This document shows, in pieces, positions 6,204-58,035 of a DNA stretch of 58,035 nucleotides (positions are counted from its first letter, which is position 1; every line of letters begins with the position of its first letter). The notes under the pieces were generated by a model. It was given only the letters and a program-made list of their open reading frames with translations. It was not told the origin of the DNA and searched no databases. The translations under genes and the position numbers were made by a program. Source of the DNA: Rozella allomycis CSF55 (Eukaryota > Rozellomycota); NCBI GenBank assembly GCA_000442015.1, contig KE560897.1, forward strand, positions 1-58,035, given 5' to 3'.

Positions 6204-8224
6204 TTAACGTCTGTCGTTTGTTCCACTCTTTCTCTTTCCTGAAAACAAATGTTTTGGCTTTGATTCAACGTAAATACGATCAGCCTCACCTCTGGTACCC
6301 TTGAGTCCTCTTTGTTGTTTCTTTTGAATAGCCTTGAGTGCCTTCATAACAGAAGCATTCTTCACACCTGTAAGAGATTTGCCCATAAGTGGTTTCTTGC
6401 GAGTAGCTTCTTCAACTTGCATTTCATCATCAGAGTCGCTGGAACGTTTTCTCTTGACAATTGATTCTTCCATTGGAGTGGCATCCAAGCCGAGTTTCTC
6501 CAAAGAATCTTTAACAGTTTTGAAGGAAACTGATCTTGCTTTAGCTTTGGCTGAGATCGTAGTACGATTCTTTCCTTTTTCCATTCTGTGTTGTTGAATC
6601 ATGATTTGTTTCTTTTCTCTAATAAGTTTTGCCTTTTCTCTAATTTCTTCCTCTTCTGAATCAATTTCTTCTTCCTCGACAGCGTAAATACCTTGAGCAA
6701 TGAGCTTCTCTTCTTCCTCTTCTAATGCTAAAAGCTTAGCTTCAATGTCTGGATCAATAAAATCTGCAACGTTCTTTCCATCAATAATTTCTGGAATAGG
6801 ATCATATTTCCACTCATCGTTTGATAAAATGTATTTTTCTAACTAATAGATTAAAGGTAAGTTTACTCTTCAAGTCGATGTTGTAAACACCAGCACCACC
6901 ATTCATTTGTTCTAATTCTTTTTCAGTTAATGGTCTATTCGGATCATTTTCTTCAAACACCATTCTGCTCTTGACGCTTTCAGGAATAAATGGAGTTCTT
7001 TGTTTTTGATCTCTTGGTTTTGGAACAGTCAAAGTAATTCTATTCAAAACATCATTAATCTTATTGGTCTTCATTTTAATATCAACGCGGGAAGCCAAAA
7101 GTTTTTCACATGCCTAATTCTGAAATTTCGATAAATTTACTTGTTTCTTAACTTCCATTGTTCCTTCGTCCATCATACAACTCATTTCAACAAAATGGAT
7201 TCCTTCGGTTTTAAGATTCTCAAGGAGCATTCTTGATTCAGGCTTCAATTCATCATATTTGATAACGTCAATCTTGTTAATAACACAGATCATTGGCTTA
7301 TTAGCAAAGAGGGGTTTAACGGTCTCCAAAAGCTTAACTTGTTCAGTAATAGAATAACCACATTGCTCAGAAATATCAATGAAGAACAAAACACAAGCAC
7401 GAAGATGAGCAAGAGCAGTGATGGATTGCATTTCAATTGTATTCATTTCCTCCAATGGATGATCCAAAATACCAGGAGTATCAATCTTAATAAAGGTTTT
7501 CACATTTAATTACCACTTGCCATCTAAGATAGTTGTAATCCATATGACCAACAAACAATGATTTCGTAGTGAAAGCGTATGGTTGAACATCAACTTCAGC
7601 TCTTGTCAACTTGTTCATAAAACTAGATTTTCCAACATTAGGATATCCACACAACAAGAGTGTACGCGTGTTTGGATCAATAGAAGGCAATCTCGCCAAA
7701 TGCTGGCGAATTTGTTCCAAATAAACAAGAGAATCTTTTTGTTTCTTCATAATAGTCGCCATTCTATCTATAATATTTGTAATTATTACCTTCCCAACGC
7801 AGCTCTCTTCAACTGCTTACATCTATAAAGCGAGTCACCAAACTTCAAAAGCCTCACATAATCTTTCCCAACTTGTTCAATCAAATGTCTAGCTGTATTA
7901 ATCTGTCCAAGCGCCAATTTATAATGATCTCTGTCATAAAGAACATTCATCAAATCCGCATAAAATGGATGAACTTCCTACGTATTTTTTCCAAACAATA
8001 ATTACATCTAATTTCGGGAAACTAGTAAGAATTTGATTTAATTTTTCATCAAAAGCATCCTGTGTAAACTTGACCTTGCGCATGTAGAATTTGCGGATAC
8101 GAGAGATTTTGTAATTTGGATGAATAACAGTAGGTGTCTTGCGGTTGGTTTTAGATAAAACTATATCGATAAAATCGGCCGAAGTGGGGACCACTTGAAT
8201 CTTTTTAAAGTTGTATAGAGACAT
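6204..8224 (-). CDS. NOG1: Nucleolar GTP-binding protein 1 (NOG1)
   Basis: GTPase required for 60S ribosomal subunit assembly in the nucleolus. Six exons with introns at 7978-8005, 7764-7789, 7486-7513, 7114-7140 and 6839-6866 (26-28 nt) give 627 aa, normal for the family. G-box motifs are present: [10 protein letters not shown] (P-loop), DTPGILD (switch II) and NKID. The N-terminal NOG helical domain is also clear ([37 protein letters not shown]). The NOG1-specific [18 protein letters not shown] and [20 protein letters not shown] are visible. The C-terminus is acidic then basic and includes the run [18 protein letters not shown]. It lies convergent with the small gene at 5897. Confidence 0.97.
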
Positions 8225-20138: not shown

Positions 20139-22474
20139 ATGGACAATTACATATTATTATGCCTGTTTGTTATTTTAAACTTCAGTCAAAAAGTAGAGTC
20201 CATATTAAATCCCTTACATTTTAATGGTCTCGAGAAAGCATTGGAAAACCGCCCCATCATCGAAGCTTGTTCCATGATTCACGGAGACTTTCTGCTATAT
20301 TCCTTGAAGACAAAAAGTTCGCCGTATCACGCTTTGGCGTCTAAAATCTACATTGTGACGGGAAACCAACTCAACATGCACACTAGAAGTGCTATAGGCA
20401 AATTAGAAATTAAAGACTGGATAAGGATTTCCGATTGGGCTAGGTAAGTATTTAGATATGAATTAAAATCAGTGAAATAAAGAAAAACAACTTAAACCGG
20501 GAGTCATTTGCGAAAAAGGTTAGAAAAGCATTCATTGATAATCCTTCAATTTCACTTTCTGATGTTATCAAATTTGCGATCCGGATCCATAATACAGCGC
20601 TAGATCCTAATATTGACGGTCACTTGCTTCATTCATTAATTTTATCACCTGCATGTTTTCTTGCTAACGACTCGAGTGATTTGCTAGAAAATGGTTTAGG
20701 CTTGGTGCCTTACAATCCAGATAACTATGGGATGATTTGTTCTGGATCTGATATTTTTAATAACCGGGAACAATTTGCATTTTGTCTATTCAGTGGAAAT
20801 CAATATCCGACTCTGTTACGTTACATGCGCCCTGTTGTGAATAGAACCGAATTTGCTGATTGCGGAGAAACAACTGTTTTAAATTTACTAGTCATACTTA
20901 TTTATGATATTGAAGCGAAAAGATTTGACTTGGATAGGTTAAAGTTAAATTCAAGGCCCACTCCTTATCTGAGCAAATTGATACATTTTTTTCAAGAATA
21001 TCCGGATGTGGACATTATAAATTCTATTAGAGCTCATAATGCCTTTACAGGTTTGGTTTCATTCCTACCTGGTGTTACGTATAGTCTTGATGGCATGGAA
21101 TTGACCGGAGGATTCAAAAGTTTCATGGCCGTAGTTAATAATCTTCTTGGAGTTAAAAGTCTTCGCCAATTATCTTATTTATACTATATAAAAACTGGCA
21201 TTACCATTGAATTCAAGGAGAAATTGGATAAAGAAGGATATGGTGATGTTAAAATAGGCATTAATAATTACGAATATAAAATGGAATTTTTTAGAGGCCA
21301 TTTTGGAATTCTACTTGTGTCATCTCCTGATGCACACCGATATTCTTTCCCGGTAATGCCGGGTACGGTCTTCAATTTGCCAAGTGTTGGCTTTTGGTTT
21401 GGAATGCTACAGAGTAGAGTCTATAAAAGTGAATTTGTTCTTAAATTGTCAGGGGAGAATTATAAAATTGACATTCGGGAACCTTTTTCCAATACCTTGT
21501 TGCTTCTAGAATCAAATGACAGAGTTTCATATAGACACACATTCTATAAGAATTTTGCAAAAATGATTATTTATTTAATGAAAGTGGAAGAAATGGAAAA
21601 TGGGTACTTAGATGAATTTGATTGGAAGAGAATTGAAGATTATGTTGTCCAAGAGTTGCCTCAATCAAGCTACGAAGTTTATAGAAATATAGTTATGAAT
21701 ATCAATTATTATCCACAAAGATTAATTGACATTATCATTAAAGGAGGGGATAGATTTGTTTTGGCGTTGTCTACTTACCATCCTAAATCCCTTGAGAGCA
21801 ATTTGTTGGGTACCATGGAAAGCATTAAAAATGTTCCTTTATTGAGTTACATGAAGGAAGCTGTATTGATGGGTTCTCCTTTCACTAAACCATTGATGAT
21901 TCTTGTTTTAAGGTCTGAAAATACGGTTTTAATTAAATGGTTCTTTGATGATAGCACGAATCCCGCCTTAAGAAAATTTGTTATTGATTCTATGCCTAAT
22001 CATCTACTCCTTATTGAAGATTACAATTTTAATGATTCAGAAGTGAAGATTGTTACAAATAAATTATTAGGAAATCCTCAAGGAAGTCTTAAAGTTCTCT
22101 TAACTTCAAATAACACTAAAGTGGTTGAAAAATTGTTAGAAAATTTGGATTTATCTGAATATGATCCTGAAGATGTTTATTCTCTAATGGAGTCTTCACC
22201 TAACTATGAAATGTTTCTATTGTTCCAAAATGCGCTAATGAAAACAAATGATGATTTTATGGCAAAACTACTGGAAATAATTTTAAATAACTTCGAATCA
22301 ACTGTTAATAATACGCACAACTTTTTACAACTATTAAAAACTATAGAATTAGATAAAACTCTTTGTGAAACGATTTTAGAGGCTTCTAAAAGTCAAGGAG
22401 TTCTAAATGCCCTTAAACTTCAATGCTTTGAAGTATTACCAGCAAGGAACTTTTACAACTTAACTTTAACGTAA
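20139..22474 (+). CDS. Large secreted protein with DCGETT motif, unknown
   Basis: Two exons joined over a 29-nt intron (about 20444-20472) give 768 aa. The signal peptide is clear (MDNYILLCLFVILNFSQKVE). Near residue 250 is RTEFADCGETTVLNLLVILI, followed by FDLDRLKLN, SFLPGVTYSLDG and LTGGFKSFMAVVNNLLGV, then a stretch with EFFRGHFGILLVSSPDAHRY. The isolated Cys in DCGETT and the later His residues could form a Cys-based active site, but this is speculation. The C-terminal 250 aa look helical and repeat-like. I do not recognise the family by name. It sits in a block of secreted orphans. Confidence 0.75.
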
Positions 22475-22614
22475 TTTATTATTTCGTTTAATAATAAATT
22501 TATTTAAATTGAAGTAAAGTTGTACTTTTATTCTATTGTGACAATTTTGACCCCCTGGATATAAACGTTTGAGGCTGATCCAGACTAAGCCTGTCAAAGA
22601 TTGTAACCCTTGCA

Positions 22615-24331
22615 ATGCGAATGAACGTTTTGGGCACTCTGTCACTATTTATTCTGATTTTATTAGTAAATGTGTTAGCTTCTAGTGCCGACTATTTTCA
22701 TTTTGGCATCTTTCCTTTTGGGAGATATTACAGCCTTCCACCCGGAGAAGCGGAACGTAGTATTCACAGAGAAGCGTATATGCTAGAAATACTTGGAGTT
22801 AGTAAACAAGACGAAAAAAATATGGGCATTTTATATAAATTGAAAAACCGTGCTAAAAGGGAACCTCCACCGTTCAACAATCCACAGTGCATTTTCAAAT
22901 TGGACGCCTACATTGAATATTATTATGAATTGTTCATGAACAAGAAGATAACTTTCCATGATGCCGTATTTCATATCGAAAATCGCGACTATGAATTGAT
23001 TCTTGAAAACGATTGTCAAGGGGATATTAGAAAAGTTCTTGGTGAATTATATGAAACAAGCATATTTATGGAGCACAACTTGATTAACAACTTATACCGC
23101 CGTACATTTGTAAAGACCGAGTTTACTGATCCGCAAATTGTAAAAATATTTATGAATGAAATGCTAAATTATATTTCACAAAGTATTTTTGATGAATTGC
23201 ATACTTTAACATTTTATGTTGACAGTGACGTGGTGCAAAAACCTTTACTTGAGTATGCGTCCAGAAAGTTAAGAAAATATGCAAATGACGGTATTTTTTG
23301 ATGCAACATATTATATAGGCGACTATTCAATCTTTTCACCAAACCAAGTCTATGATGAAATTCTAAACAGGAAAGAAATCAGATACCTTCCTATTTCTTC
23401 TAGGGATTCTTTCATTAAAAGTGTTGTGATCATTTTGACAAATGCGTGTTCCAAATTATACAGAAGTGTTGACAAAGAGTTCACTGTTACTGTTCCAAAA
23501 GACGTTTTCTCATTTTCTAATATTTTCAATAGAGCAATTCAGGATATTGAAATTCCAAATGAAGCGGCACTAAAATACTTGAAAATTTACATTAAAGCTA
23601 TTATTGGCAGTGTTATCATTATGAATGATGATTTTGTATTTCGGGAAAGATTGAGCGACGATATAATGGCCTTTATTCATCCAATTATACGCCTTTCTTC
23701 ACATGTAAGAAGAAAAATGTCATCATCAAAAACAATTGCTTATTACGATCTATATAAATTAATCAAATCTTCTCGGTCGGATTTAGATGACGAAGCTACT
23801 GAAACGATAATATTTAGACTATATACATTGCTTAATGTTATATCTATAACTTACACGGATTCATTAGTATTATTTGACGCCTCTGCTAAAGTTGATGATG
23901 ATCGATCCTTTAAATTTAAGACCATAAATAGGCGGTCTGTTTCAATGATAAATCTTAGCCAAAAGTTCAAGTATGGAAACAAAAAAGTTATAGAATTGAC
24001 CGACAAGCTTATTTACTTGATTTCCAAACTGCCCATTTTTGATTTTATTCCTGCAAATTTTCTTGAAGATAAATTCGAAGATTCGGTATATTTTTTATCC
24101 GACTTAATACCTAATCAAAGATCGGTCAAGAAAGCATCCAAAGCAATTTTTAAGTTCTTTGCTATGGGATTACTTCACGTAAGCATTCAATTTTTTTGAA
24201 AGAAATAGATTATAGTATTTGTACTTTTGCTCATCTACAAATCTTTGCCACACATTTTCAATTTCATCTTGTTCTTAACAAAGATAGTTCTAAATTTCTC
24301 TATGGCCTGCATAATGGAACGTACAAATTAA
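22615..24331 (+). CDS. Secreted/membrane family protein, copy A
   Basis: Three exons with introns 23291-23318 (28 nt) and 24179-24208 (30 nt) give 552 aa. Signal peptide about residues 1-24 (NVLGTLSLFILILLVNVLA). The N-terminal domain has CIFKLDAYIEYYYELF, KKITFHDAVFHIENRDYELI and then a Cys. It aligns with copies B (28272-30144) and C (31755-34132). The middle is helical. The last exon encodes a strongly hydrophobic segment (IIVFVLLIYKSLPHIFNFIL), so the protein is probably membrane-anchored at its C-terminus. No known domain is seen. Family membership is from direct comparison of the three sequences in this window. Confidence 0.8.
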
Positions 24332-39698: not shown

Positions 39699-41095
39699 TT
39701 AATCCGATTTTTTCGTTTGGTCTACCTGAATCACTTGCGGTCCGTTAATTAAAGCTCTAGCCATATCAATTACAGAAAATGGATGCTCCTTCATGTATTC
39801 TTCTTGCATCTTTTTTTGCTTTTCTACTTCTGCTGCTAATTCCTACTTGTAATATTTTTAATCCAACTACCTTTTTGTAATGCTCTACTATTTTTTGCCT
39901 TTCTTGTCTTTTTAGTACTTTAAATTCATCATAAGTCGGTACAACATATTCATCATTCGTATTTTGAGTCTATCATATATTATATGTGCAATTACTTTTA
40001 ATCCTAACCACTTTTTAATCCCTGAAGCAGTCTGCATGACTTGCAAGGTCTTCAACTGATTTTCTCTTGCTATTTCATATTTTTCTCTCATCAATTTATC
40101 AAAATCTTCCACTACATTCTTATCCTTGTAGGCCTTCAAATATTCTCTGACATCTTCTGTATTGCTTGCAGCCAAAGCTATTTAATATAAAAAGAAAATC
40201 TTACTCTCAAAAAAGTCTATATAAGAGTCAATGGAATAATCAAACTCTCCGTTCCATGCCTTTATCTTTACAGAATTCTCGGGATGCAATTGCAAAGATG
40301 GCTCTTCATAATCCAACATTACAACCTTCTTCATATCTCTGTTCAACATTCCAATATCTTTTAAATGAACGCCATTCTTAAAATGCGTCGAATCAGAATA
40401 CAACCTATAACCAACAATAGCGTGAAGTGGGTCCAAGTTATCCATTATCATAACCGCATCATTGGCATTCATCTTGGTAAACACGACTAGCTCATAATGA
40501 AACGCTAAATTATACAAAAACTCTTCAATCCCAGGTCTCTTTGCTATCCTCCACTTGCCAATATTTTTCTATCACTAAAATATACTTATCCTTACATCAA
40601 ACACATGACAAACAATAAACTTGTCTAAATTAATCACCAATGTATACGGTTTTTGATATGGCGCTGGTAGCGGATCAGGCAAAAGCTTTTTCGCCCGTGG
40701 TTGTGAATAGTAATTCCAAAAATCTTCAACACGTAATGGTACACGTCGGATAAATCCCTGGAAAGCATTTTCATTTTCTAAATTCGGATAGTCTTCATCG
40801 GCCCGTCCTTTGTTACACTCAAATTCATTTTACCAAAGCGGTATAATATGGATAACCCCACGGCAGACAACAAGGCATATGGCAGCCAAAGTGTCTTCTT
40901 ATTTTCACTGCTATTTGGCATGTCTGGAGTGTCAATGATTCGCTTGCTGCCCTCACTCTTTGTGGCGCTTGGTGGGGGCGAAACAGTCGCTTTGGGGTCG
41001 TTTTCAATGTTAGGTGATGCTTTATATGCATTTGTTGATTGATATCTGAGCCTATTTAAGGGAGTTGATCGAAATAGGCGGAAACGTGGTAACAT
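39699..41095 (-). CDS. TIM50: TIM50, inner-membrane import translocase subunit
   Basis: Presequence receptor of the TIM23 complex. Six exons with five introns of 26-28 nt give 420 aa. Presequence MLPRFRLFRSTPLNRLRYQS; one membrane helix WLPYALLSAVGLSILYRFG; then the FCP1-like phosphatase domain in the intermembrane space. That domain includes KLLPDPLPAPYQKPYTLVI, WRIAKRPGIEEFL, YELVVFTKMNANDA, FKNGVHLKDIGMLNRDMKKV and LHPENSVKIKAWNG. The catalytic DxD of active phosphatases is not kept (INLDKFIV), as is usual for TIM50. The C-terminal segment EFKVLKRQERQKIVEHYKK is typical of the family. Confidence 0.93.
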
Positions 41096-50185: not shown

Positions 50186-53100
50186 TTAATCACTTAAACT
50201 GCAAAGCGCCGCCACTCCTCTATTAATCCAATGCGATTCCTGCAAATCAGTCGGCAGTCTAATAGAAAGCACATAATTAGTGCTATGCCCCGTCGTCGAC
50301 AATGTGCCTCTTCTCGTCGCCGTCTTGTAAACCGGACAATCATACGCATTCCTCTGCGCGATTTTTGCTCGATCCATCGGCTTGAACCACAGCACAGGCA
50401 GCTGGTCAAACAAAACTTTAGGCAGCGATTCAGCGAGCATATGCGTTTCCGAATTCCAGCGCGCGCCTTCAAGGTACAGTCCGTGCACATACACACCATC
50501 AACCGGCGGCACTTTGGTGTTGGTGCTGCCATCTAGAATTTCAAAATCTAATGCGAGGATATCAATTGGCAGAGAGAATTTGCGTGCATAGTTTTGTAAG
50601 CAGCCGGTGAGAAACGATTGCGTGAAAAAGAAGCCTGAAATCCAAAAGACGGGTGGTGGGCCGTTATCGTACCAGCTTTGGAAAAAGGATATGCGATTGA
50701 GGAAATCTGAAAAGTAGCTGCCGAGTGGTTTGATTGATGGATACGATTTGCTCAACCACAGTGGAGGTATTTTGGCAATGAGCATTGATTGAGCGGTTGT
50801 TTCTAGTTGCGGAGTCATAAGAACGAGTCCTTTTAATGCCTTGAGAAGTGAATTGAGAGATGACCGAATGAGATCCAAAAGAGCTTGGAATCTGATGCAT
50901 TCCTGGATGAGAACTGTGTTCATGCTATCATTGTAATTAACAGGATACTTTGTAGTGATATCAACCATATTAAAGTCATTGGGTAGTCTATTAAGTAAAT
51001 CCGAAGCTAGATCGATGATTAATTGTTCATTAGATTGACCACCCCTTGATTCAGTAGAATTTTGTGTCAAAAGAACAGCAGACAAGAGATTGAAAGTTTC
51101 CAGTTGATTCTTTGTAATATCAGCGTTGTCATTCAAGTGAAATACTTCAGGTTTAGAATCCATTGGCAGATTTTTGATAAATTCGAGGTACGAATCAAAA
51201 GAAGAATTTGTAGGCCGAGGAGCGAAATAAATTCCACTGTTGGAAAACTTGTAATCATCGTCCATAATCTTGGGAGTGTAGAAAATGTTCAATAAACTCA
51301 TCAAAGTTCTTCTATCCTTGTCATCAGTTACTCTTCCACCATACTATTAAAATAAATGAATAAACTTACGTTGCATTCACCAGTTAAATATCTTAGCGCA
51401 TCAAAAGGAATTTCATCGTAGCTATTCAAAAAGATTCTCACTTGTCTCGCACTAATTCTCAAATCTGTATCATCTTTAATCAAAAATATTAAGCATGGTT
51501 ACTAAATTCATAAGGAATATTCCAACCAATCGGACCATACTGCCTCCTCTCCTGGATAACAGCATGGAAGAAGCACAACCCAAACAATAATTTCTCAAAA
51601 GCGACTTGTTTATTGCATCCATTAAAGAACGAAGGCTCAGAGATGGGATCTCCAGTGAATGATCTATAAAGATTAGCTTTCAATCCCTTTGGAGGTTCCG
51701 TTGTCATTTTCACACCATTTTGCAGAATGGAAACAGGAAACTTTTCAGAAGGATACGAAGTCAACCAAAGTCTAAAATTTGGATTAGTTTGATCAGGCGA
51801 CAACTCTTCAACAATCTGCTCAAGCGACGGGAGCCAGGAGACAGCTAAATGGCAGTTCTGGAGAATCACCCAGGACCCTTCAGAAATGGCTCTTGTGATA
51901 ATCCTGCTAGCGATAACCCCCTGGCCCTGTCCAAGCGAAATTGAGCTGATCTTCTTGTCATCAAATCCCTTTGATTCAGCAAACTTTAGCAACCCAGTCA
52001 TTGGATCAGCACCAGGCGACAAGACAAATATCAATGGCGTTGTTGGACTGCTATCACTGTAACAAGAAGACAGCTCAAATGGCGGTGGTTCAACAAACTC
52101 ATTGCCAAGCGACTCTTTAACAAACTTTTTAACACCAGGCACAAGCTTATCAGAACGGAAACACCTCAACACTATCAGTTTCTGGAATAGAGATAATTCA
52201 GAATCCCATTTCCCTGGCAATGGCAGTTCATGTGGATCAGCATGATCATTAAAGTGTTTCCAATCATTCAAATTCAAAGTGAAATCAGCGAGAAATGAAT
52301 TAAAAGCAGGTAAATTGATCAATCTGTTTAATTCAGCCCAAGTTTTCTCTGATATCCACGACTTGTCAGGATTTGGCGGGATTTCCTTTTCAATAGACAA
52401 GCCACCAGTTAGCAAAAATCGCCATTCTTCTTCATTAATTTTATCGTGAGATTTAAGAATAGAAGAACAAAGCAAGAGAGAAAACACAAGTTTATCTTTT
52501 TCAAACAGAGATCGACAGACATTGTTGTATAGAGATTTAGTGAAATGATTTTTCAGATTTAGCAGGCGGTCTGAAACATTTGAAGACTTTTCGCTGTTTT
52601 CAATTGAAGAAATAAACAGATTAATGAACCATGGGAGAGAGTATTGGTACATTGGCTCAATATTAGCTAAATCAGAAATACAAAAAAACAAGATAGAAGA
52701 ATGAGTAGCAATTGAAGTGTATCCTAATCGAATTTCATCGATTTCTTTTTCTGTTGCTTCTGCGGTTGCTTGCTTTTCTTTCACTTGATTAGCTAAAACT
52801 TTTGAAGAAGATAAGATTTGAATTGCAGTTTCATCTTCTAAAATATTCCCTTGCGATGATGAAAGAATTTCTAAAATTTTATCTTCAATTTCTTTCAATT
52901 GTCGTTTATTGTCTGCTGATTGAACGATTAATTGATTTTTCATTTCTTCCAATTCTGGTCTTTCCTTTGCTATAGTAATGCCTAAGTAAGTTGTGAATAT
53001 CTATGTTACCTATATTAGTCTTTAATAACCTATTTACCTAGTAATTGATCTTCAAGCCCCTCTTTAGTTATCATAAAATTGATAATAGTAACTTTAGTAG

Positions 53101-56100
53101 AAATTTCAGGCAAATAATGCGGATTCCTCAGCTTTGTCGTAATATAAAACCTAAAATCATGCGAAAACTCAATAACGGAATCCCCAATCCTAATAAACAA
53201 CTGCCCACCCTGCTTAAACGTCTGCTTCAACAACAACGGCTCCAACACTGGGTCCAACTCTTCACCCACATTCTCCAACAGAACTGGCGTCCCAAACTGA
53301 ATTGCATTCTCCAACGTTCTCATGTAATCCGCGTCAGACAGTTTAATCACCTGTAAGCCCCTTGATTTCTCCATATTCTTAATCCACCTATTAGCCTGCC
53401 CCTGTGGATCTATCATCAGCGGCCATCTAGCTGTATTAGACGAAATCACAGCATTGTCAATCGAAAACGAATCATTCGGAAGCCCATTAATAATCCACTT
53501 TCTAATATTCACAGGCTCACCCAAAGTATTCGCAATCTTAATCGCAGAAGAACTGGGAATCTTCTTTTCTTTGCATATCTTTATCCAATCATTCAAACAC
53601 TCATCTCTAAAACTTTTGGTAAAGGCACCCAAATAAGCCACAGATCCAGACGCAATCAAAACATCACCTAACTCACCAACTAATAATCAATCTACCCAAC
53701 AGCGTCTCATAAACAATATCCAACTCTTCAGCAACCCTCGTCCATCTCTCTTTCTCATCTCCAAGCGAATTAATCAGCTTTTCCGCTCTCACAAGCTGTT
53801 TCGAACAATTATCCACTTGCAGTTCCAAAGATTCCTTCTTTTTCGTCATTTCTTCAAACTTTAGCTCCAACTTGGTCATCCTCTCTTCAACAGATTTCAG
53901 CTGCAGCCTCTTTTCAGTCAACTTTTGCATCGTTTCAGCCAACTCCTTTTCAGCAATCGCCAACGCTTCCTTCTTGGGCGCAACCACCTTGGCCACCCTG
54001 TCGTAACACTCCATCGCTCTCACCCATCTACACAGCCCTTCAGCTGCCGACGACGCATTCTTCACCTATCATTACATCTATTGAAACAAATTACTTTTTC
54101 AGGATCAAATTCAGGATTGTCCATATACTTTTGCCTAATCTGTTTCATTATAGCCGGCTGTATATTATCTCTATCATAAGTTCTCAACGAATCCAGAAAC
54201 TTCATATCAGACATCATCGTCTTTGCTGGCCCCCAATAGTCATCAATCTTCTTGCCAGGCGAATTCGGATCTGGTATTTTCACGCTCTTCACATCCTTCA
54301 TTATACAAACAGCCTCCATCACCAGCTTCACATTGCCTATCCCAATAAACCACTTTCATTACCAGGCGGAGACTTCATTGACTTTAGCAGCGTTATATCC
54401 TGCGCCTTCAAAGTATCCAAAGCAGCCAACGCAGCTTCAAGAGCCGGCAGCGCTTCCGCCAGATCATGCTCACACTCCTCCTTCATTCTCGTTGAACTCG
54501 CCGCTTGCTCACTTGCAACCGCTTCATCCTTTTGCACAACAACTCTAACCTGCTGAACTTCATGCGACTCTTTCTCAATCTGTTTCATAATAACGTCAGT
54601 CTCCTCCTTTGTTTTAATCAACTCTGGCTGCAGCGCTTCCAATTCTTTCTGCATTTTGGCCACCGACAGAGACGCAAATTTAAGCTTTTCCAATCCATTC
54701 ACATACCTGAATCTATAAGTGGAAATTTCTTCTTGTTTCTGCTTTAATAAACTCTTGAATGTTTTCAGTAGCTCTAAATATGAAGTTGGAGTGACATAGT
54801 TTCTTCTTTTGAGTTCTGAATAGTACTTTTTTGAAAGGGAAATGACGCTGTTGTGAAAGTACATGCACATGAATGAAATGTTGTCGATTGGAATGTCTTT
54901 GAAATCCATCACACTGAGAAATTTATTAGCAACAATTTTAAGAGCATCTTCAGGCCATGTTTGGTACCAAGCTATTGTACAACAATTAATAATGGATGGG
55001 TATTGTCTCAATCTAACTCTGAACACATCACCAATAGGACTCATGCACAATACTATATGAAGATTTTCACAACATCTATCAGTGAAACATTTCATTACAG
55101 CATTGGGTCCCTGTACACTTGGATTATTACTTTTAATTAATTCTGTTATGTTTTGTTTATCTTCTGCTGTTAACAGATTTGGTACTTGCCCTGAATTCAA
55201 TAGATTGTTTATATCTTGAAGGAATGTTTCATTCTTTATTTGATTGTCTGAAAATAGAAACACAACTTGTTTGTCTTCTCCACCCGCCTTTTTTAATAAA
55301 CCTCTAAGAAAATCTTGCCAATCTGCGTAACCAAAATTCTTTGATATTTCAACTTGAAACAAATCAATATTCTTAATATACGCTGCCAATCTTTTCAAAT
55401 AGAAATAAAATTAATTACCTAGATTAAACATAGATTATGTATTGGTTACCTGGTTAATGATTGTCTTCCACTGCCACCAACACCAACTAACAACATATGG
55501 CCTCTTGGTTGTTGCAGCACTCTACTAATCCTCAACAAATGTTCAATAGCAAACCTAAGTAACAAATTTAACAAATAATTTACCTAATTTCAAACTACAA
55601 AAACCACTTTACCTATAATTAACCCCTCAACACCATTTTACCTAAACATGACCAAATCCATCGGCTTCTTTGACAACGCATTATGATCCACCAAATACTT
55701 TTCAATCAACGCAGCCAACTCGTCAAACCTAACAATCTCTCTATAATATTTCTGATTCTCTTCGCCCGGCACAAAATCACAAAACATTAATTTGCGCAAA
55801 TCAGACTCTACAATCTCACTCTCGCTCTTGTATTGCTCCATACACGATTCAAAGGAATTATTAAATGAACTGTTCACAACATCTCGTATCAGAGTAAAGA
55901 ACCATTGGCGGTCAGAATCGTCCACTAGTCGGTCGTAGAACACGCGGTACACTTCGTGTGTCCAGAGTCTGACCAGCTGGTCTTTACTGGCAATACTCTT
56001 ACTACAACTAGTCAGTATTCCTATCAACTAAAACTTCAAATGTTTACCTTTCACTACTCGAGCAAAGTCTCTAAGATTAAACGTATAATGACTCTTGGCT

Positions 56101-58035
56101 GGCGTCGGCAGTAGATTCTTCATAGACTCTCTATAAACTCTTCTCGTAGCTTCAACAACTCGACCACCAAGCGAAACAATCTCTGCACTAAACTGCTTTG
56201 AGAAATGCCAATCAATAATAGTCTTGAATATTCTATCCAACGTCTGATCATCAAAATTGGTTAATCCAATGGCATTAAAATGACCTTTCAAACTCAACTG
56301 ATTCAATTACCCAAATATCTAGGTGTGACAACATTCTTTGCAGTTGTAGCAACCATCGCAGTAATAAACTGAATATCAACAAACTCTTGCATGTTCTTTT
56401 CATTCAAATTATACCAACCGCCATGATCCATCCACTGGCGAAGTAATTCTATTGGCGGCTGTGCTCCATACTGCTCTTTCAGTGGCATTGACAAATCATC
56501 AACAAAGATTAAACACTTTTTGCCAATTGGAGGTCCAAACACTCCCTTTCTTCTCTTTTCTATTTTAGATTCAATCATTTCTTGCGTTTGGTTGCATGTT
56601 GTTGTTGCTGAAAAGGTTATAAATATTTGATTAAACTTTTCTGCAGATAATTTCTTTGAAAGCACATCTTTTATATAAGCACTTTTACCTTGTAATGTTA
56701 ACAATAGTTTCTTTTACCTATATATATTCAACTTAGACTTCTGATTACCTAGTCTCAATAACACTATCTCTAATTACCTGTTCCAGTTGACCCAACAAAT
56801 AATACAGCCTTCATATTAACAACCAACATCTTCAAAAGATAAGAATATTTAGCAGTATCAGCAGTCTCTACCAAGATTTCTTCATATTTAGCATTCAATG
56901 GAATAACTGTTTTATTTATAGTTGAATTCCAATGAACCCATTCACCATCCTTTAAACAATAATCATACACATTCCCAGGCACGGCAGATTTCAATTCTAA
57001 CTTTGGAATAATTGACTGTTTTAAGAATGCGTCAAATTTTGTTCTTCCTTCTTCGTTTAGGCAGCCACCGAGAGACCAAACCAAGCAAAACAAAAAGACC
57101 ATTGACATAGGGTTTGAATTAGCTGAATTCGCATTAGAATTATTAGAACTAAACGTATTTGAATTGATATCATTGGAAATGTAAAAACTCTCAATCATAT
57201 TCATCAAAGAAACCACCAAATTAGAATCCTGCGTCTGACACATCTCCCCACAATTCCCTCTAACAAAGCCCAAACACTCATCCACCAGCTCAAACAGCGG
57301 CACATACCCACCATTAATCCACCTCAAACTCTGGTTCGCACCCGCATTCAATTCACACTTTCTCAACCACGAAACAAACAGCGGCTTCCATCCAAGACTC
57401 GACGGCTGCATATATATCATCCCACACCTGCTCACAGTCGCAGGAGAGGCAGCCTCCAGATCCTTCACCTCGAACATCATGCTCATCGTAGAAGACAGTT
57501 GTATAATCTCGCCGCTCGTCAAACAAAGCTTCTTGTTGTCGTCCAGCACTGTATTCATATTCTCAATCCAGATAGCATCCACTGGACCATCAAACACTAT
57601 CCACTTTCTGTCGGGGCTCGTTGATGATGAAAATGTGCGGAAAATAACAGCCAACACTCCGTCAGACCATTCATGCGTTATTTGGTCGAATTGGCCATAC
57701 AGTTGGCCCATTGTAATTGATTTGGGATTAATAACTGACACTTGCACTTTTTCATTCATTTCTGTTAATGCTTTCTGCAGAACTTTGTAACATGCTGTTT
57801 TGCCACTGAAGGGTTCTCCTACAAGCATAAATCCATGTCTAACCAGCATCATTTCATACACTTGCAACACCTTTCAAACATAAAATTAAAGTTTACTTTG
57901 TCAATGAATACAGGGACTGGTTGAAGGTTTAATTTTTCACATGATTCTGTTATAGATTTTATTAAATTTCCGTGATCAGCTTTTGGCAATTCAGTTCCCG
58001 GAAACAAATCAGATATTATACCTTTTGAGATTAAA
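50186..58035 (-). CDS. Axonemal inner-arm dynein heavy chain (DNAH3/7/12 type), 5' end beyond window
   Basis: Carries AAA2 through the C-terminal domain, about 2,450 residues, entering at [15 protein letters not shown]-loops: AAA2 [11 protein letters not shown]3 GSTGTGK, AAA4 GVGGSGRQS. The AAA4 linker [20 protein letters not shown], stalk coiled coil, AAA5 [31 protein letters not shown], and [16 protein letters not shown] follow. So do [12 protein letters not shown] and the C-terminal end [15 protein letters not shown]. Single-headed inner-arm class by the C-terminus; exact orthologue is not settled. Eight single introns of 26-29 nt, for example 57871-57896, 56285-56310, 56021-56047, 54337-54362, 54066-54094, 53668-53695, 51474-51502 and 51344-51369. 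Four junctions carry back-to-back intron arrays (listed separately). Confidence 0.95.
52982..53037 (-). other. Array of two abutting introns, AAA5-AAA6
   Basis: Between GAT CAA TTA CTA G and GC ATT ACT ATA GCA ([16 protein letters not shown]). Units 53010-53037 and 52982-53009, 28 nt each, GTAAATAGG to AATATAG and GTAACATAG to ACTTAG. Confidence 0.88.
55391..55449 (-). other. Array of two abutting introns, after AAA4 P-loop
   Basis: Between TCA TTA ACC AG and A TTG GCA GCG (GRQSLTRLAAY). Units 55419-55449 (31 nt, GTAACC to ATCTAG) and 55391-55418 (28 nt, GTAATT to AAAAG). It lies only 105 nt of exon away from the 87-nt array. Confidence 0.88.
55555..55641 (-). other. Array of three abutting introns, before AAA4
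   Basis: Between ATG TTT AG and G TTT GCT ATT. Units 55613-55641, 55584-55612 and 55555-55583, each exactly 29 nt, each GTAAA to TTATAG, AATTAG or ACTTAG. Units 1 and 2 agree at 18 of 29 positions by hand alignment, beginning GTAAA and GTAAA then TGGT. The frame [13 protein letters not shown] needs removal of all 87 nt. Confidence 0.88.
56689..56777 (-). other. Array of three abutting introns, AAA3 P-loop
   Basis: Between GGA ACA G and GT AAA AGT (GTGKS). Units on the minus strand: 56749-56777 (29 nt, GTAATT to ACTAG), 56718-56748 (31 nt, GTAATC to TATAG) and 56689-56717 (29 nt, GTAAAA to ACAAG). All three must go to restore the P-loop. There is no base between units. Confidence 0.85.

Follow-up and report, generated by a model that had tools for sequence, protein, structure and literature searches.

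End-to-end arrays of two to twelve tiny introns in genes of Rozella allomycis suggest that splicing takes out the short units one after another

In a gene for a DNAH7-type axonemal dynein heavy chain of Rozella allomycis, a flagellated parasite of the phylum Rozellomycota whose host is the water mould Allomyces (PMC5701793), the coding sequence is interrupted by 87 nt that read as three introns placed end to end, and the locus raises the question of whether such a stretch is removed as one intron or as three. The window analysed here is the whole stretch of 58,035 nt of contig KE560897.1 from strain CSF55, and its features are collected in Table 1 together with arrays from other loci. The NOG1 protein encoded in the window is 100% identical, over 627 residues, to a protein of R. 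allomycis CSF55, and with this match a dicyemid origin, considered on account of the short introns, was set aside. A preliminary description of the window had stated that the insertion consists of three abutting 29-nt units, each starting with GTAAA and ending with TAG, and that the flanking exons can be joined only if all of them are removed, and both points were borne out by the sequence of the minus strand at 55555-55641. Retention of any unit, in all seven non-empty subsets, gives a stop directly past MFR, and the flanks form an open join ([10 protein letters not shown]) only with all three units out. This join aligns without a gap to DNAH7 in 9fqr and 8j07, and likewise to the proteins of Allomyces and Entophlyctis and to a metagenome protein that is 74% identical to the dynein of the window (P0242; 1427 aa, from a metagenome contig of 11,279 nt), which perhaps stems from a transcript or from an intron-poor relative of Rozella. 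With all inserts out, the spliced dynein is identical to the database protein P0241 (2446 aa) at 2446 of 2446 residues. The 87-nt insert is confirmed as wholly intronic.

According to the preliminary description, an intron of 87 nt would be a strong outlier in this window, whereas three of 29 nt would each be ordinary. Our first gene model placed 294 of 326 introns at 26-31 nt under a prior that favours 24-33 nt, and because of this prior eight dynein loci were realigned under a flat length, with up to six homologs each, using only terminal GT/AG, a mild GTAA bonus at the first donor and a permitted length of 18-330 nt. Among the 33 inserts called, 18 lay within strict flank rules, namely 11 single ones of 26-31 nt and seven longer ones, and six of the seven (56, 58, 85, 86, 116 and 148 nt) can be divided into 28-31-nt units in only one way. 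The seventh, of 214 nt in a dynein locus on another contig (L003), includes an N as well as a sequence nearly identical to the exon, and is best explained by a join made in assembly at a 29+29 array. The 15 inserts outside the strict rules include eight long ones that do not tile, each of them called with one homolog of up to six. Three further inserts of the window (89, 87 and 59 nt) tile as well; after dinucleotide shuffling of insert interiors, chance tiling occurred in 0 to 142 of 2000 shuffles according to length, and for the 87-mer six of 2000 shuffled interiors could be divided into GT..AG units of 26-31 nt.

De novo gene finding under a flat length returned many long introns that look false, bridging neighbouring genes, and we therefore turned to homology-delimited inserts and to a mixed length prior. 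One such de novo candidate, 215 nt at 22471-22685 on the plus strand of the window, resembles a spacer separating two genes. Under the mixed prior, the window and a second region (C132) yielded 134 isolated introns with strong flanks, of which 126 measured 24-33 nt, one was shorter and seven were longer, in agreement with the earlier statement that each 29-mer is ordinary in length. Four of the seven contain N, one looks like a gene boundary and two remain; convincing single introns above 33 nt were few. The same description had counted about 75 single introns in the window, a figure that is not reproduced by our gene models, which give 47 in addition to four arrays.

Three of these four arrays (56689-56777, 55391-55449 and 52982-53037) accompany the reported one in the dynein gene, sit in conserved stretches and leave a gap-free alignment when removed. 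Immediately downstream of the first of them, a stretch at 56668-56688 that looks like a further unit was considered as such and rejected, as its removal opens a seven-residue gap in the DNAH7 alignment. Since this Walker A stretch mimics a unit, homology rather than pattern is needed to set the borders of an array. GGT-AAA codons such as those of this Walker A motif (GKS) may act as cryptic donors.

Table 1. Coordinates of the dynein gene, its intron arrays, comparison features of the window and three arrays from other loci
Feature	Position	Strand	Composition	Evidence or remark
DNAH7-type axonemal dynein heavy chain gene	50186..58035	-	12 insert sites (8 single introns, 4 arrays)	5' part cut by contig end
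Reported array	55555-55641	-	29+29+29 nt, each unit GTAAA...TAG	sequence
Unit 1 of reported array	55613..55641	-	29 nt, GTAAA...TAG	sequence; flanks aligned to DNAH7
Unit 2 of reported array	55584..55612	-	29 nt	sequence
Unit 3 of reported array	55555..55583	-	29 nt	sequence
Second array, DNAH7-type gene	56689..56777	-	29+31+29 nt, directly ahead of AAA3 Walker A codons	join open, gap-free to relatives
Third array, DNAH7-type gene	55391..55449	-	31+28 nt, at [12 protein letters not shown]	gap-free alignment including DNAH7 structures; open join
Fourth array, DNAH7-type gene	52982..53037	-	28+28 nt, at EDQLLG/ITIAK	gap-free alignment; open join
Exon mimicking an intron	56668..56688	-	21 nt, GTAA...AG look-alike, codes GKSAYIK (Walker A)	kept in P0241
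Ordinary single intron (example)	54337..54362	-	26 nt	
NOG1 gene	6204..8224	-	five single introns of 26-28 nt	
Longest array, CFAP43	L033 4204-4543		twelve units, 340 nt: 29-29-29-28-27-29-28-28-28-29-29-27	gap-free PDB alignment at KNYRK/GIHYLEW
Array, L032	L032 4017-4196		six units	open join
Array, mitochondrial RNA polymerase gene	L029 5169-5399		eight units (29x5, 28, 28, 30), three identical	

How common abutting units are had been left to a genome scan, and the scan points well beyond a single gene. In the assembly searched (9.97 Mb in 213 contigs, and thus different from the published one of 11.86 Mb in 1059 scaffolds, PMC5701793), the pattern AGGTAA-N18..26-AGGTAA-N18..26-AGGTAA has 114 matches against three in a control read backwards, and 92 against none if a T is demanded before the middle AG, 22 of the 114 middle junctions being other than TAG; as overlapping matches may share one array, neither 114 nor 92 is a number of arrays. 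A first pattern had given 137 matches with a high control of 77, and 114 against three is the cleaner comparison. An 18-base universal 18S rRNA pattern had no exact match in the whole assembly, from which the ribosomal repeat may be absent.

The curated set comprises 21 arrays with 86 units of 26-31 nt each (one of 26 nt, seven of 27, 22 of 28, 37 of 29, ten of 30 and nine of 31) and total lengths of 54-340 nt. Two, three and four units are found in five arrays each, five units in three, and six, eight and twelve units once each. Ten arrays lie in dyneins, and the others in genes for topoisomerase II (L030), a MOT1-like helicase (L031; named 'Helicase-like protein' in the PDB and taken by us to be MOT1), mitochondrial RNA polymerase (L029), glycogen debranching enzyme (L032) and CFAP43 (L033), loci that were chosen for the presence of arrays, with the arrays outside the dyneins picked by a pattern demanding TAG/GTAA. 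The PDB alignment runs without a gap across two arrays of topoisomerase II, at DDMGL/GKTLQ in the helicase and at AA/GLPHF in one array of the debranching enzyme. The join is open over 60 nt on both sides in 15 of the 21 arrays, and also, with final borders, in L032 4017-4196 and L033 4204-4543; L030 4199-4341 has a further intron within the 60-nt flank and is supported by a gap-free PDB alignment. Also counted among the 21 are L033 3534-3653, L032 6301-6412 and L030 2465-2581, candidate arrays on the basis of their open joins, L031 7713-7766, a candidate two-unit array at an uncertain gene start, the candidate L003 copy, which lies beside an N, and the L029 array, whose removal leaves a one-base frame offset ahead of the downstream exon GFLTLSN. 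Two N-containing 'arrays' (L030 2087-2162 and 4590-4811) were excluded from the counts. The reported array is not isolated, since arrays occur in several genes, and their spread over the genome is patchy, with none among the 162 introns of one gene model of C132:1-200000.

Some further observations concern individual arrays and units. A second model of C132 holds two candidate two-unit chains (39722-39775 and 127451-127505, plus strand). Six of the twelve CFAP43 units start with GTAC, not GTAA, and in one gene model this gene is split at the array. Array units are slightly longer than single introns, with a mode of 29 nt in the 21 curated arrays and of 26 nt in 189 single introns.

Neighbouring units are often copies of each other, as judged from their sequences. 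Core identity averages 0.656 over 65 adjacent pairs, compared with 0.50 between loci and 0.484 among single introns, and 28 of the 65 lie above the 95th percentile for pairs taken from different loci. The earlier suggestion that whole introns duplicate in place is clear in other arrays, such as that of L029 with its three identical units, and weak in the one for which it was made: units 1 and 2 as well as 2 and 3 of the reported array match at 18 of 29 positions without gaps and units 1 and 3 at 13 of 29, and since 5.4% of 406 pairings between single 29-nt introns are at least as similar as 18/29, this match is weak evidence for duplication there. Arrays also stand in a particular exon context. 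An AG ahead together with a G behind is found in 14 of 21 arrays and in 22 of 189 single introns (p = 8e-8; nine of 14 among checked arrays), AG with GT in eight of 21 and five of 189, and a downstream exon starting with GTAA in six of 21 and none of 189, the last figure being biased low because the model could take such a start as another unit. The AG..G context fits duplication between AGG repeats. We infer that whole introns are duplicated in tandem where they stand, probably between the AGG(T) repeats at both ends of introns in this context, and that arrays originate and grow in this way, each duplication adding an identical intron directly next to the first. An AG ahead of the array would also maintain a strong donor throughout stepwise removal, which would leave the downstream G unaccounted for.

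The internal junctions bear most directly on how the arrays are spliced. All 18 in nine strictly delimited dynein arrays read TAGGTAA (19 of 19 with the L003 copy beside an N), although core identity is no higher than 0.625 in 12 of the 18 pairs of neighbouring units, near the between-locus mean of 0.50, and this combination favours separate, stepwise removal. Final acceptors, in contrast, are TAG in three of the nine arrays, and those of single introns in 114 of 189. With the L003 copy included, internal acceptors differ from final ones (19/19 against 4/10; Fisher p = 0.0004) and from those of single introns (19/19 against 114/189; p = 0.0002). Over all 21 arrays, 63 of 65 non-final and nine of 21 final units end in TAG, a count in which the non-dynein arrays had been found by a TAG pattern. 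The internal junctions hence look selected, and their conservation is the best evidence, if short of proof, that these sites work.

Given these data, we consider it likely that splicing in Rozella follows intron definition on units of about 29 nt, with stepwise removal in any order, and that arrays have grown by in-place duplication of whole introns. The 87-nt insert would then be an array of three complete spliceosomal introns, met by a spliceosome with a narrow size window (about 26-31 nt) that would not handle the array as one long intron and would cut out the units singly. Each AG/GTA junction would serve as acceptor for one unit and as donor for the next, with a zero-length exon between them, and any order of removal would be possible because the loss of any unit leaves a shorter perfect array. 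Both the stepwise removal and the size limit of the machinery are what we infer from sequence.

The best of the alternatives, though an unlikely one, is that an array is one intron, removed in a single step in which the first donor pairs directly with the last acceptor, with the internal sites as unused relics of duplication. This is the simplest chemistry, final acceptors do resemble those of single introns, and P0241 is accounted for equally well, as one-step and multi-step removal of an array give the same protein. Unused sites would, however, have to persist in the face of the divergence described above, and an intron of 340 nt would be far beyond the length range. Less probable still is a mixture in which units mostly leave one by one while pairing across units also removes several at once with the protein unchanged: any first donor and last acceptor give the right product, and human AGGT sites can be donor and acceptor (PMC10809524), but frequent pairing over longer distances is made less likely by the narrow range of intron lengths.

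That the arrays are assembly errors or mini-satellites absent from the real genes is very improbable. Single Ns in L003 (a dynein locus on contig C27) and L030 (2087-2162 and 4590-4811) do mark joins with duplicated exon and array sequence, and the frame offset in L029 points the same way, whereas in the majority of arrays the units have diverged and Ns are absent, and in several genes the exons on either side meet at conserved codons. The array-rich dynein gene of the window is itself cut by a contig end. Since arrays seem to trouble assembly, their number may be underestimated. Introner-like mobile elements inserted repeatedly at one site, which might place many introns of similar size side by side, are the least credible source of the units, as similarity is local to an array and a sequence family common to several genes was not seen in the sampled arrays (0.50 between loci against 0.484 for single introns).

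Stepwise removal of short units can be extended to a bolder proposal, which we offer tentatively and lean slightly against. The machinery might be strictly unable to handle introns longer than about 31-33 nt, and intronic DNA would then grow only in whole-intron quanta; arrays would be serial substrates that cost one extra splicing cycle per added unit, the TAG/GTA junctions would be selected for this purpose, and the array load would set the splicing burden of a gene. As for the machinery itself, the pairing ends of U1 and U2 look canonical, with a U1 score of 69.0 bits that lies below the cut-off of 69.5; no branch-point consensus rose above shuffles, and a RED_N search had no match anywhere and is uninformative.

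Arrays of abutting complete introns were not found in the part of the open PMC literature covered by our search, which did return stwintrons, ratchet points and dual-specific sites, and an earlier notice in the 2013 Rozella genome paper is possible. The excerpt of a 2021 intron survey gives 2.5 introns per kb for Rozella and makes no mention of arrays (PMC8476143). Annotation can hide them, because a single long intron yields an identical protein.

In comparison with known systems, the arrays share with the stwintrons of fungi a complex intervening sequence and, probably, its removal by consecutive standard splicing reactions. In a stwintron, one of the introns sits inside a splice element of the other and is excised before it (PMC7138796, PMC9024468), whereas every Rozella unit is complete, with its own GT..AG, none is nested in the nine delimited dynein arrays, which tile completely, and up to twelve follow in a row; one-step removal of the whole array would give the same protein. 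With the recursive splicing of Drosophila and vertebrates, the arrays have in common the AG/GT junction, possible stepwise removal and, formally, a 0-nt exon, and the proposal of recursive splicing in the preliminary description stands in so far as AG followed by GT lies inside the intervening sequence (18/18 internal junctions of nine dynein arrays) and looks selected. The name itself fits loosely, because the fly cases belong to long introns and a recognised exon: known ratchet points subdivide long introns and require a cryptic RS-exon (PMC8605326), while the 21 arrays total 54-340 nt and consist of complete 26-31-nt introns that abut in coding genes of a fungus. With the next acceptor only 26-31 nt away, the cryptic-exon mode of flies seems unlikely in Rozella.

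The closest parallel to the proposed origin comes from human UBC and VCX3A, where AGGT in tandem repeats can be donor and acceptor and where new introns were proposed to come from repeat expansion (PMC10809524). The human repeat units are coding sequence, whereas in Rozella they are introns, with AG before and G(T) after the array and with recognisable copies as neighbours. To our knowledge, no end-to-end arrays are known in Paramecium or Nyctotherus. What these two do share with Rozella is an intron length near the minimum, their ultra-short introns being about 25 nt long (PMC5014332). If the units leave singly, the Rozella arrays would be a natural, many-gene case of serial splicing without an exon between, driven by intron definition alone, and would offer a clean test of how the spliceosome measures intron length, of its tolerance of zero-length exons and of intron multiplication, for whose study they could be used because they range from identical to diverged copies.
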